This document shows, in pieces, positions 6,053 through 63,272 of a stretch of DNA of 64,000 bases. The translations under genes were made by a program, and so were the position numbers. Source of the DNA: an uncultured Chthonomonas sp. GTDB taxonomy: Bacteria; Armatimonadota; Chthonomonadetes; Chthonomonadales; CAJBBX01. The stretch covers positions 96,456 through 160,455 of the forward strand of contig CAISJD010000049.1 in assembly GCA_903885605.1 (NCBI GenBank). Direction: 5' to 3'. How positions within the stretch are numbered: the first letter of the stretch is position 1; the number at the start of each line of letters is the position of its first letter. Under the pieces are notes generated by a model. The model did no database searches. It saw nothing but the letters and a program-made list of their open reading frames with translations, and was not told the origin of the DNA.

Positions 6053-6485
6053 TGCCCGGAGTTGCGGGAAGTAGTCCGCGACGCGGCTCGCTGCCAGTTC
6101 TATCCTGCGCTACGGCCGACCGCCATCGCGCCACACATGCTCTGGCTCGCCACCCTGGGTAGCGGGGCAGCCCCACCCAACCCGGCTTCCGCAGGCAGGA
6201 CCCAATCCGATGTGTCCGGTGATCCAGAGCTACTCCGGTAGCCTCGAACCGAAGGCGGACCTGGGCAGGGAACATGCAACCAGCGTGCGTACCCGCACCC
6301 ATATCGAGCCGCTCGGTCATCATTGGCCGATCGGCTTCTTGCTGTTTGGGCTATCTGTCTTGGCCCAGTGCGTCACCTGGGCCCCGCGTTTCGTATGAAG
6401 TTGCGGGAATGCCTGTGGAGCCGATGGTCTGCGCCTTCGGGTGCTCTGCAGGCGCCGGTCGACGCAGCATGAATGGAGGATCGCG
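6053..6485 (+). other. Intergenic region without recognisable gene
   Basis: About 430 bases after the broken nuclease gene. Open frames here have no family resemblance and no ribosome-binding sites. Nothing structural stands out. Confidence 0.5.
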
Positions 6486-6971
6486 ATGCCTGAGCCTGCC
6501 AAGAACACGATTTGCCTCTGGTTTGACGGCGACGCCGAGGAGGCGGCGCGGTTCTACGCCGCTACCTTCCCGGACTCGGCGGTCAGTCGGGTGTACCGGG
6601 CTCCCGGCGACTTCCCGGGCGGGAAGGAGGGCGACGTGCTGACGGTCGACTTCACCGTCCTGGGCATTCCCTGCCTCGGGCTGAACGGTGGGCCGGCGTT
6701 CAAGCACTCCGAGGCCTTCTCGTTCCAGGTCGCGACCGCCGATCAGACCGAGACGGACCGCTACTGGAACGCCATCGTCGGCAACGGCGGCGAGGAGAGC
6801 GCGTGCGGCTGGTGCAAGGACCGGTGGGGGCTCTGCTGGCAGATCACGCCCGTCGCGCTGACGCAGGGCATGGCCGATCCCGATCCCGCTGTCGCCAGGC
6901 GCGTCTTCAACGCGATGATGGAGATGGTTAAGATCGACATCGCCACGATCGAGGCCGCACGCCGCGGCTGA
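6486..6971 (+). CDS. VOC-superfamily protein (PhnB / 3-dmu-9_3-mt type)
   Basis: A 161-residue protein with GGAGG 7 bases upstream of the ATG at 6486. It shows the hallmarks of the PF06983 group: ICLWFDGDAEEAARFY with YAATFPDS, then FTVLGIPCLGLNGGP, FSFQVATADQTETDRYW, and CGWCKDRWGLCWQITP. The members are small cytosolic proteins of the vicinal-oxygen-chelate fold. Despite the family's 3-demethylubiquinone methyltransferase label they are not proven methyltransferases, and most have no known substrate. Its neighbours do not suggest a role. The next gene is convergent, with only 6 bases between stops. Confidence 0.85.
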   Translation: MPEPAKNTICLWFDGDAEEAARFYAATFPDSAVSRVYRAPGDFPGGKEGDVLTVDFTVLGIPCLGLNGGPAFKHSEAFSFQVATADQTETDRYWNAIVGNGGEESACGWCKDRWGLCWQITPVALTQGMADPDPAVARRVFNAMMEMVKIDIATIEAARRG

Positions 6972-55568: not shown

Positions 55569-55662
55569 GGGCGGTGACCTTTCAATGGCGATGGGCGTTT
55601 GCGTCCTCCATTCTACGCCCAAACCGTACGCAGCAGTCCTACGGCAACGACGGCGGGCGGCA

Positions 55663-55670
55663 GGTATATT
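55663..55670 (+). promoter_or_regulatory. Putative -10 region of the first prepilin gene
   Basis: GGTATATT stands 91 bases before the ATG at 55761. The same octamer occurs 82 bases before the second prepilin gene (56657-56664). The repetition at similar distances supports a shared promoter type. No consensus -35 hexamer is visible. Confidence 0.4.
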
Positions 55671-55760
55671 GGTGGATTGACGGACGTACTCGGGGCGGCC
55701 GCAGGATCCCGGCGATGCCACATAGCCCGAGATGATCCACAACAAGGGAGACTGCCCACA

Positions 55761-56558
55761 ATGCATCGAAGCCGCAATCACGGTTTCACGCTGATCGAAC
55801 TGCTAGTCGTCATCGCCATCATCGCCATCCTCGCGGCGATCCTCTTCCCGGTTTTCGCCCAGGCCCGCGAGAAGGCCAGACAGGCTGCCTGCATGTCGAA
55901 CATGCGGCAGATCGGGACGGCGCTGCTGATGTACGCCCAGGACTACGACGAGGTTTTCCCGCCCAGCCAGTTGCCCTCCAGCGCCCCTACTACCAGTTGG
56001 CCGACCATGCTCTTCAGCTATGTGAAGAACGAAGGCGTGTTCGTCTGCCCGTCGGGCGAACCCAGCCCGGTGCAGCAGGACCTGGGCAACGGCGTCACCT
56101 CCGCCTACGTCGGCATCACCAGCAGCTACGCGAACCCCAATCCCTACGGCAACGCCGGCGACGGCAGCACCCTGGGCCGCCAGTTGGTTAACCGCCTCTC
56201 CTACGGCCGTAACCTGATCCCCAATACCGCCGCGTCGTGGGCAACGGCGGGCTTCTACAATGGCAACAAGAGCGGCTTCGTGACCACCGGCACCACGCTC
56301 TCCGTGGCGCTGGCGGACGTTGAGGACGCGGCCGGGACCATCCACATCATGGACGCATGGACCCGCACCGCCGACCTCGGCAACTCCATCCGGGGCATCC
56401 AGCAGGAGATTCGCACCGACCACTTCTCGAACGCCACCGCGTCCAAGGTGGCTCGTCGGCACTCCGGCGGCTTTGAGGCCGTGTTCGGCGACGGCCACGC
56501 CAAGTGGCGCCGCTGGGGCACCACCACCGCTGCCGACTGGACCATCCAGGCCGAGTAA
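55761..56558 (+). CDS. Prepilin-type N-methylation protein (pseudopilin-like)
   Basis: A 265-residue protein; AAGGGAG lies 10 bases before the ATG at 55761. The type IV prepilin signal is [19 protein letters not shown], with cleavage after Gly and methylation of Phe. It continues [18 protein letters not shown], which I associate with Armatimonadota. The C-terminus has the 'H-x(n)-DGHAKW' ending ([21 protein letters not shown]) of the large surface-protein family annotated as 'prepilin-type cleavage/methylation'. These are membrane-anchored and processed by a prepilin peptidase. They may decorate the cell surface rather than form pili. Confidence 0.92.
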
Positions 56559-56584
56559 CCCTCTCGCCCTCCTCCGAGCAACCC

Positions 56585-56617
56585 CTGCGCCCCGCCTGTC
56601 ACTTCGGCGGGGCGCAG
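56585..56617 (+). terminator. Strong hairpin after the first prepilin gene
   Basis: CTGCGCCCCGCC at 56585-56596 and GGCGGGGCGCAG at 56606-56617 form a perfect 12-bp stem with a 9-base loop, 27 bases after the stop. No T-tract follows, as with other candidate terminators here. Confidence 0.6.
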
Positions 56618-56656
56618 TGATGTCCGCGGCCCTTCATGGCCCCTTAACAGCGCCGT

Positions 56657-56664
56657 GGTATATT
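56657..56664 (+). promoter_or_regulatory. Putative -10 region of the second prepilin gene
   Basis: GGTATATT, identical to the octamer upstream of the first prepilin gene, lies 82 bases before the ATG at 56746 and follows the upstream hairpin. Independent transcription of the second gene is therefore likely. Confidence 0.4.
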
Positions 56665-56745
56665 TGCTTCAGGGGTACGGACCCAGGCGGCAGCGGCGCC
56701 GCAGGCCACGGACCCCAACTCATGTTCGGGAAGGGAAAAGCAAGC

Positions 56746-57603
56746 ATGGACCAGCGCCGCAGGCAGGCGTTCACACTCATCGAACTGCTGGTAGTGATCG
56801 CCATCATCGCGATACTCGCCGCGATATTGTTCCCCGTCTTCGCCCAGGCTCGAGAGAAGGCCCGCCAGGTCTCCTGCCTCTCAAACATCAAGCAACTCGG
56901 CACCGCGATCTACATGTACGTGCAGGACTATGACGAGATGTACCCGCACGCCGACTACAGCCTGCCCGCCGGATCGGGCAGCCCGCTGAACCCGGCCGCG
57001 AGCGGCACCTACGCCACGCGCGTGAACCACTACAAGTGGGAGTCGTGGCTTCTGCCGTATGTTAAGAACGTCCAGATCATGCAGTGCCCCAGCCGCGCGA
57101 AGGATGCCGAAGCGTGGGCCGTGAACGGCGAGCTTAAGAATGCCTACGCCCTGAACCTCTCCGTTACCGGCGCCAGCAACGGCCTGCAGGATCGCCCCTC
57201 GTTCCTCGGCGGCTCGCTATCGGGCGTCCAGTCCGTGGCTGAAACGTTCCTCATCCAGGAGCTCTACAACCAGGTCACCTACAACTACCTGATCAACGAC
57301 GGCAGCAATGTCCTCTACCCGGCCGCACTCCGCGAGTCCTGGGAGCCCTACCTGAAGCCCGGCGGCGCCACTGACCGCCGCAATGCGCCGCACAATGAGG
57401 GCCTGAACCTCTCGTTCGCCGACGGCCACTCCAAGTGGATGCACGTGAACAACTTCCTGTCGCAGTGCCCCACCGCCGCGCAGTACAACGCGGGCATCGT
57501 GACCCTGCGCACTAACCCCGGCTCCGGCAGCGGCGTCAACACCTACTACATCACCACCGCGCCGAAGTGGACCGCCCCGTTCAACCTCTGGGGCCTCTAC
57601 TAA
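56746..57603 (+). CDS. Prepilin-type N-methylation protein (pseudopilin-like)
   Basis: A 285-residue paralog of the preceding gene. The leader is [20 protein letters not shown], with Ala instead of Gly before the methylated Phe, and continues [18 protein letters not shown]. The body shares the 'S-N-[IM]-[KR]-Q-[LI]-GTA-x-x-MY-x-QDYDE' block and ends with [21 protein letters not shown] stands about 10 bases upstream of the ATG. Another start at 56722 is possible but would lengthen the leader. The two genes arose by duplication but have diverged in the exposed C-terminal half. Confidence 0.92.
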
Positions 57604-60961: not shown

Positions 60962-61195
60962 TGTGCTCTATCCTTTACGCGGGACCGGGCGCGAGGGCGC
61001 GCCGCTGTGTCCATGCTACCTGTTGGCGAGCGGTGAATGGTGAGTGGCTCGATCTGACCGCTCGGCAGCCAAGTCTCAGCGGCATTGCACGCATGGCGGG
61101 CGTATATAGGCGTCGCTGCACACAGATCGAGGAGGTCCGCGAGTAGAATCGGCAGGAGTCGCCGGCCAGGCGGCTTGGTGGACAAGGAGGGCGCC

Positions 61196-62302
61196 ATGAG
61201 GGTCGCGCAACTCGATATCGCCAACTTCAAACGCTTCGAGAAAGCGCAGATGTCATTTGTCAACGGCGAGACGGAGGAGATCAGCGATCGATTGCTGGTA
61301 CTTGGCGACAACGGGATGGGGAAGACCACGTTGCTGCAAGCCATCGCGTTACCCATCGCGCTCGCCTCAGGACAGATCCAGTCGCTTGAGCAATTCGACT
61401 GGAATGGGTTCCTGCCAGGTCGGTACTCGCGGTGGGGCCGTCCGCGGATCGAGCTCGAGGTCCACTTCACAGAGGACGAGATCAGCGCCACTCGGGAGGC
61501 AGCCGACCGGTGGGAGCGCAGCCGCTCTGTGGAGGCCAAGGAGCGCGCGCCTTTCGTCATGCCCGGCAGTAGTTCGGTGGTGCGCTTGGTCCTCGACGGT
61601 GATGAGTGCCGCGCGGAAACCGCTGCGGAGCTCCTCCAGTTCCGTGGACGGTACTACGCCTACCGCCTGCTCCGCACCGATGCGACCGCGCGCGGGCTGT
61701 TCAAGCGCCTGCCCGGCCTGTTCTGGTTCGACCAATTCCGGAACCTCGGCGTTCCAGTAGCCGCTCCCGACCAGACGAACGGCGACCACCATGACGCGCG
61801 CGGCCGTGAAGGCTTCGACGGTAGAGTGGACCAGTTCAGGCGATACTTGAATGGATGGAGGTTGGCTCAGCAGTCTCGTTCCAGGCCGTACGCCACGGAC
61901 TACCTGACGGAACTGGAGAACCTCTACAAGAGGGTGTTCCCAGGGCGCTCGTTCGCCGGGGTCGAGCCAATGCCGGGAGTTGACGCTGTTGCCCCGGAGG
62001 ATTACTACTTCCTGCTGAATGATGGCCACAGAACGTACGACATTGTTGAGATGTCGTCCGGCGAGCAGGGCGTGTTCCCCATCCTGTACCGATTCGTGCA
62101 GCAGCAGATTGCCAACTCGGTGGTCCTGATCGACGAGGTGGACCTGAACCTCCACCCACCAGCCGCACAGGCACTGGTAGCGCAACTCCGGCCGATGGCC
62201 CCAACTTGTCAGTTCATCCTCACGACGCACTCAGCGGCTGTGAGTAGCACCATTGGCGAAGCGAACACGCGAAGGTTGACGGGAGGGGCGCTATGCCTGT
62301 AA
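61196..62302 (+). CDS. AAA (ABC-type) ATPase, first gene of a PARIS-like pair
   Basis: A 368-residue ATPase; AAGGAGG precedes the ATG. Walker A is G37-DNGMGKT-T45, the ABC signature is MSSGEQG (S287-G291), Walker B is VVLIDE (D313, E314) followed by VDLNLHP, and the switch His is H345 in TTHSAAV. This is the AAA_15/AAA_21 type found in OLD, Gabija and PARIS (AriA) defence ATPases. It has no TOPRIM domain of its own; that is supplied by the next gene, which it overlaps by 10 bases. It is shorter than typical AriA and lacks an obvious long coiled coil. Its base composition seems slightly lower in GC than that of its neighbours. Confidence 0.85.
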   Translation: MRVAQLDIANFKRFEKAQMSFVNGETEEISDRLLVLGDNGMGKTTLLQAIALPIALASGQIQSLEQFDWNGFLPGRYSRWGRPRIELEVHFTEDEISATREAADRWERSRSVEAKERAPFVMPGSSSVVRLVLDGDECRAETAAELLQFRGRYYAYRLLRTDATARGLFKRLPGLFWFDQFRNLGVPVAAPDQTNGDHHDARGREGFDGRVDQFRRYLNGWRLAQQSRSRPYATDYLTELENLYKRVFPGRSFAGVEPMPGVDAVAPEDYYFLLNDGHRTYDIVEMSSGEQGVFPILYRFVQQQIANSVVLIDEVDLNLHPPAAQALVAQLRPMAPTCQFILTTHSAAVSSTIGEANTRRLTGGALCL

Positions 62303-63156
62303 GCGTACTCTTCGTTGAGGGCTCGCCCAAGGCGCCGGACCGCATTGTGCTGCCCAGGATCGTGCCGCTAGGATGTACGGTGATCCCCGGTGGGAGCAAG
62401 ACCGGGCTGGAGGACCAGGTCCGCGGCGCTCGCGTTCTGGGCCGCGGGGTAGTAGCTGCGCTTCGCGACAGGGATTTCGATCAAGACAACTCAACTCCGG
62501 TATGGGCGCCGCGCGGATGGGTGGCGGGGCGCGCCAAGGACTGGATCGGCTGGACATGGGAGCGGGTGGAGATCGAAAACTATCTGATCGATCCTCAGGT
62601 GGTCTCCCAAGCGCTTGGACGACGCGCGCCTCAGATGACCACTTACCAGCGCGCCCTCGATGATGCGGCTCAGCGCATTGCCGCCTACACGGCCGCACGC
62701 ACGGCACTATCGCATTGGCCTCCTTTCGCCCCCATGGCCAACCGTTGGGGTGATTCTGTGTACGGTGGCGACCATCTGTTCCCCGCGGACCACAGCCCCG
62801 ATGCTTGTCGCACCGCCATCCGCCGGGTTGTCGAGACCTATGAGACGGCGCGGCGCGTGGACGTTGAGGAGGTGTTGCGGAGGTTCGAGCAGGTCCACTC
62901 CGAGTGCCGGCCAGGGGGCGTCCGTTTTGCGCACTATCTCACGTTTTTCTCGGGCAAGGACCTGGCTATAGCCATGGCGCCTGAGCTAGACAGCATGCGA
63001 CTGGGCACGCCGAAGGGCTTCTGCAACCGCGTTGCCGGCGGAGTCGAGTCTGCGACTGACGATGTAGCCGCCTGGTTGCCGGAGTGGTCGGCGTTGCGTA
63101 TGGCGCTGGCAGAGGACAGACCGCTTCGCAGTTCCCTGTCGGTCAATACCGCCTGA
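62293..63156 (+). CDS. TOPRIM/DUF4435-like nuclease, second gene of a PARIS-like pair
   Basis: A 287-residue protein overlapping the ATPase gene by 10 bases. The TOPRIM catalytic pattern is readable: E9 in VLFVEGSPKAPD, and D59-R-D61-F-D63 in AALRDRDFD. WERVEIENYLID (about 89-100) is the hallmark of DUF4435 proteins such as AriB. The remaining 180 residues are helical, with FSGKDLAIA near residue 215. In PARIS, the ATPase holds AriB inactive until a phage anti-restriction protein is sensed; the released TOPRIM nuclease then cuts tRNA. That assignment here rests on architecture and motifs only. Confidence 0.75.
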   Translation: MPVSVLFVEGSPKAPDRIVLPRIVPLGCTVIPGGSKTGLEDQVRGARVLGRGVVAALRDRDFDQDNSTPVWAPRGWVAGRAKDWIGWTWERVEIENYLIDPQVVSQALGRRAPQMTTYQRALDDAAQRIAAYTAARTALSHWPPFAPMANRWGDSVYGGDHLFPADHSPDACRTAIRRVVETYETARRVDVEEVLRRFEQVHSECRPGGVRFAHYLTFFSGKDLAIAMAPELDSMRLGTPKGFCNRVAGGVESATDDVAAWLPEWSALRMALAEDRPLRSSLSVNTA

Positions 63157-63272
63157 TGGATGCATCTGCTCGCGCAGTGCTATGACCGCGAGGTAGGCTG
63201 GGTGCCGGACGGGTCTTGACTTGCGGCCGAGCCTGTCCGTTGAGTGGCCCATGCGGCTTCGTAGGAGCGCCC

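Follow-up and report, generated by a model that had tools for sequence, protein, structure and literature searches.

We describe a pair of overlapping genes in a stretch of 64,000 nucleotides (nt) from an uncultured Chthonomonas sp. (the window), which we judge likely to be a two-gene cassette, probably mobile and probably anti-phage, in which a Septu-like ATPase is predicted to sense infection and to restrain an AriB-like Toprim protein that, once released, would cut host tRNA. The first gene, A (61196..62302, 368 amino acids), encodes an ABC/OLD-type ATPase head with a PtuA-like predicted fold, and the second, B (62293..63156, 287 amino acids), a putative effector, an AriB/DUF4435-like Toprim protein; both start with ATG, and both lie on the + strand, as do all motifs given below. 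These open reading frames (ORFs), their lengths and their 10-base overlap (62293..62302) are as given in an earlier note on this DNA. Our reading draws on the folds of the two proteins, their Toprim and Walker residues, the separate lineage of the ATPase among the sequences sampled, a recurring overlap with codon bias at the ribosome-binding site and start codon of B, co-variation of A and B, and the absence of the pair from the matching site in two congeners. Neither gene is a chance ORF, since sequence searches return 743 relatives of A and 163 of B at E ≤ 1e-3, and a profile search with B reaches 487 proteins at E ≤ 1e-5; the best 120 matches of each search were listed.

The ATPase retains a Walker A motif (GDNGMGKTT, G37-T45; 61304..61330), an SSGEQ signature, a Walker B pair (D313-E314; 62132..62137) and H345, all as the earlier note had read them. 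In an alignment of 120 ATPases that includes the window's own, K43, T44, D313 and H345 never vary; G37 and E314 are each kept in at least 90%. A scores 75.3 bits against AAA_21 and 48.4 bits against AAA_15, both above the cut-offs of the published PARIS rule, which asks for AAA_15 (32) or AAA_21 (27) beside DUF4435 at 27 bits or more (PMC9122126, in excerpt). Structure comparison of the predicted model, which like that of B is a confident one, gives PtuA as the nearest fold. In a tree of related ATPases, 18 AriA sequences fall on one side of a branch with support of 100/99 and 8 HNH-partnered PtuA on one side of another with the same support, and A is in neither group; AriA here means ATPases adjoining DUF4435 genes, and long branches (AriA L126 and L136, and three PtuA) were removed, L126 having been placed outside the AriA group in an earlier tree. 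A therefore belongs to a lineage separate from those of the sampled AriA and PtuA, rather than being the short, divergent AriA subtype that had been proposed, and its 368 residues compare with 420-477 in 18 of the 20 AriA sampled.

B carries the Toprim glutamate E9 (62317..62319), the DxD pair D59 and D61 (62467..62475) and the string WERVEIENYL (62557..62586), as previously claimed. Across 117 B sequences, the window's included, D61, R91, E95 and N96 never vary; E9 and D59 are each kept in at least 90%. Profile comparison shows that the invariant acids are common to B and DUF4435 proteins, with E95 aligned to an invariant glutamate of the latter. The B model matches AriB over its full length, helical part included, with 217-231 residues aligned against at most 160 in the other rows shown; with model residue 1 at chain residue 18, and assuming no gap in the first nine aligned residues, B E9 lands on AriB E26. 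Fold and profile comparison thus identify B as an AriB-like Toprim protein. The Toprim parts of retron Eco8 and OLD come next among the folds, and OLD and GajA cut DNA (PMC12409363, in excerpt), which together with the PtuA-like fold of A would suit a system in which the Toprim degrades DNA as in OLD or Gabija while the ATPase works as PtuA. We consider this improbable, because the full-length likeness of B is to AriB and the pair is flanked by Glyco_hydro_28 and Exo_endo_phos genes, with no helicase.

A Pfam scan of B gives no match, DUF4435 included, and only 4 of the 117 B relatives match DUF4435 at E ≤ 0.01, leaving 113 without; the pair therefore falls outside the published PARIS rule on its second gene. 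Profile searches, suggested earlier as a check, thus recover AAA_21 and AAA_15 in A and no DUF4435 in B. The PADLOC AriAB model matches 116/117 B relatives and the PtuB model one (E 0.008), and each of the 120 ATPases matches the PADLOC AriA models PDLC02979 and PDLC02980. These matches and the AriB-like character of B would suit ordinary PARIS, and, as the tree held no experimentally studied AriA, A might be a divergent AriA left unjoined to known ones by sampling. That explanation is unlikely but deserves some weight: the two AriA models are close in length to the generic AAA_21 and AAA_15, A is nearest in fold to PtuA, the AriA of 18 DUF4435 loci group together without it, and the published rule passes over the pair. 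Of the AriA-AriB architecture proposed in the earlier note, the AriB-like Toprim half stands, whereas the ATPase belongs elsewhere. Most B relatives among the matches listed are unnamed or called hypothetical protein, and UniRef names one, P0047, as DUF4435. Single-sequence and profile searches of B against the sequences of solved structures gave chance matches only, B had no match in plasmid or phage records, and no B relative was confirmed on viral contigs, where none of 20 ATPase relatives adjoins a B-profile match and four loci (L227, L229, L230 and L232) hold a DUF4435-profile protein.

At the junction between the two genes, the dual-coded overlap ATGCCTGTAA (62293..62302) reads (L)-C-L-stop in the A frame and M-P-V in the B frame, and a Shine-Dalgarno-like GGAGG (62282..62286) lies 6 nt 5′ of the B start, within A at the Gly-Gly of its C-terminal GGxLCL. 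A precedes B at 68 loci, and in all 64 examined, where both ends were matched (L025, L067, L074 and L075 were left out, their B start being unmatched), the overlap is exactly 10 nt, with GTG (36), ATG (27) or TTG (1) as the B start codon. By comparison, the commonest overlaps between genes are by far those of 4 and 1 nt (PMC10666635, in excerpt), and spacing in DUF4435 pairs, read from the longest ORFs of the pairs printed, varies: some have gaps, of at most 9 nt, and others overlap by 1, 4, 11 or more nt, but none by 10 nt. Among the best 120 of each protein list, 112 ATPases end in GGxxCL and 111 partners begin with M, V or L followed by P or S.

Codon choice was compared at 70 junctions (including the window, a second pair from the same genome, and the pairs of congener G002 and of G057; some are near-copies). 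The C-terminal tail of A takes the form RLxGGxLCL, with Cys367 in 70/70. The Gly363 codon is GGA or GGG in 62/70, against 46% of glycine codons elsewhere in A, and the third base of codon 366 is A or G in 68, T in two and never C, against 34% C or T in leucine codons elsewhere. A Shine-Dalgarno-like string occurs in 66/70, a count made with no shuffled control. The tail of A thus doubles as the ribosome-binding site and start of B. A sister ATPase branch from the same genomes has no GGxLCL tail and other spacings to its own partner, which argues that the tail is dispensable for the ATPase fold; in the predicted structure, residues 365-368 have a predicted local distance difference test score (pLDDT) below 50. 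The same branch, along with retention of the overlap at a mean B identity of 27%, counters the idea that the overlap is mere inertia. We also rejected a fusion of the two proteins by frameshifting: the absence of C as third base of codon 366 is in keeping with selection for a start codon, and no slippery heptamer was seen by eye at the junctions.

Several sister ATPases (L186-L203) have an AriB-like partner, often across a 2-nt gap. At L013 (titled Aminicenantes; 6400-6600) B is intact with no ATPase match, and 5′ of it, by eye, are apparent last ATPase codons with GGGAGGG and the overlap preserved. An orphan ATPase in G067 (Calothrix; L221) has no B beside it and does not end in LCL.

A genome scan with B found 78 loci across many phyla, and the tie to one poorly sampled phylum drawn in the earlier note does not hold. 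By record titles, nine phyla other than that of the window are represented among the 64 loci examined (Cyanobacteria, Desulfobacterales, Pseudomonadota, Chloroflexota, Acidobacteriota, Lentisphaeria, Myxococcota, Planctomycetota and Bacillota); many of these loci come from metagenome bins, where stray contigs occur. The ATPase is present by tblastn at 68 of the 78. When sampling was led by the ATPase, scoring 6 candidates in each of 291 genomes of the class of G067, 9 genomes yielded 12 matches at E ≤ 1e-60, 10 of them with a B-type protein downstream. Three genomes that B had already brought up account for six of the 12, and five of the remaining six have the B-type protein. Identities of A and B correlate across 57 pairs (r 0.90, with 0/2000 permutations as high), as they do in 15 DUF4435 pairs (0.96). 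Mean identity is 52% for A and 39% for B, and DUF4435 pairs behave alike (29% and 24%), so the better conservation of A is no special mark. DUF4435 matches occur in 21 of 50 genomes with loci of this family (19 over the cut-off; one, L127, is the sister branch to the present kind), so both kinds can occur in one genome. A B-type match was found in 4 of 61 genomes, the window's own included.

A second, divergent pair lies in the window's own genome (G000:C97:55188-57058; L083, L204), with 36% identity in A, 32% in B and the 10-nt overlap, and its counterpart ATPase in congener G002 (C105) is in two pieces. G057, of the same phylum, has several diverse ATPase and Toprim-like pairs (L209, L210 and L211) with weak B matches, plus a pair of the present kind.

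Comparison with the two same-genus genomes searched shows that a segment containing the pair (61021..63264) is missing from both at the same site. The match between the window and its congeners stops at 61020 and resumes at 63265-63267; the congeners have just 22 and 19 bp at this place, and their Glyco_hydro_28 and Exo_endo_phos genes adjoin. Insertion is a simpler reading than loss in both relatives. The ORFs of this 2.24-kb segment are A, B and others that overlap A, B or the edges, with no tRNA and no Rfam match. GC content of the pair is 63.3%, which is 2.4 standard deviations (sd) below the 68.5% (sd 2.2) of the window's bins; of these, the one with the least GC, at 63.4%, may be that overlapping the pair. 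No third conserved gene emerged from 440 neighbouring ORFs at 68 loci, the largest cluster covering 11 loci in mixed positions. Weighing against an anti-phage role, PADLOC comparison of near and far genes gave no clear defence-island signal, the counts being too small and the sets too unequal. That result, the patchy spread and the absence of a recurring neighbour would suit a selfish addiction or stress cassette with no anti-phage role, and B alone might be toxic. We regard this as the least probable of the alternatives, given that PARIS and Septu/retron I-A, the best-studied relatives of the two halves, act against phages, that loss of either PARIS gene is non-toxic (PMC9122126, in excerpt), and that full-length B occurs with no detectable ATPase at L013 and L054.

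The pair is thus best set beside several known systems. PARIS is marked by its trigger, Ocr or other phage proteins, by tRNA cleavage by AriB and by an AriA hexamer holding AriB. The pair shares with it the two-gene plan of ATPase and Toprim/DUF4435-type effector, the full-length AriB fold and the Toprim acids, and differs in the lineage and length of A, the lack of a DUF4435 match in B and the fixed overlap. With Septu it shares the PtuA-type ATPase fold, but its partner is a Toprim protein rather than an HNH PtuB, and A lies outside the HNH-partnered group; in retron I-A, from which it differs likewise in its partner, the ATPase is accompanied by a reverse transcriptase and msr-msd RNA. Between 58000 and 64000, looked at for msr-msd, there is no Rfam match; a reverse transcriptase was not searched for. 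OLD, Gabija and retron Eco8 also couple an ABC ATPase to a Toprim nuclease, but Gabija joins the two in one protein with a UvrD-like helicase adjoining, and the pair differs from OLD-ABC and Toprim dyads in its two proteins, its AriB-like helical part and its flanks. Toprim-linked OLD-ABC dyads in general have been described, with earlier work cited (PMC12839542, in excerpt). In the excerpts searched on DUF4435, PARIS, Septu and AriB/PtuA-like proteins, the A-B combination is undescribed, although a 2020 ABC-ATPase classification may mention it. The window's genome also has two separate PtuAB pairs (L206:2010-4177 and L207:1627-3659), with PADLOC scores of 594 and 510 bits for PtuA and 181 and 139 bits for PtuB.

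In PARIS, AriB is bound by a hexamer of AriA and cuts tRNA after its release by a phage protein (PMC12409363, in excerpt); PtuB of retron Eco7 and of Septu is also reported to cut tRNA. On the AriA-AriB precedent, we read the present pair as an abortive, ATPase-gated ribonuclease, in steps that beyond sequence, fold and junction codon bias are inferred. Ribosomes ending A would re-initiate on B, so that each B would be made beside a fresh A and captured at once. ATP-bound A would keep B silent until a phage signal released it, and freed B would then nick RNA, most likely tRNA, by two-metal chemistry, stopping growth before phage release. More tentatively, with the balance somewhat against it, the family may represent, besides PARIS and Septu, a third lineage of immunity by ATPase-gated tRNases, kept in at least nine phyla, in which the tail of A would exist to encode the ribosome-binding site and start of B, so that only a ribosome fresh from A could translate B. 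The Pfam-based PARIS rule misses the pair in this genome. If defensive, the pair links two families reported to cut tRNA, AriB and PtuB, and shows their ATPase and effector halves in other combinations; its frozen, dual-coded 10-nt junction makes it testable whether, as a general matter, defence effectors are kept harmless by allowing their translation only after that of the restrainer. Elsewhere in the window (55599-57603), two adjacent ORFs contain near-identical prepilin-type stretches, the second matching N_methyl and DUF1559.
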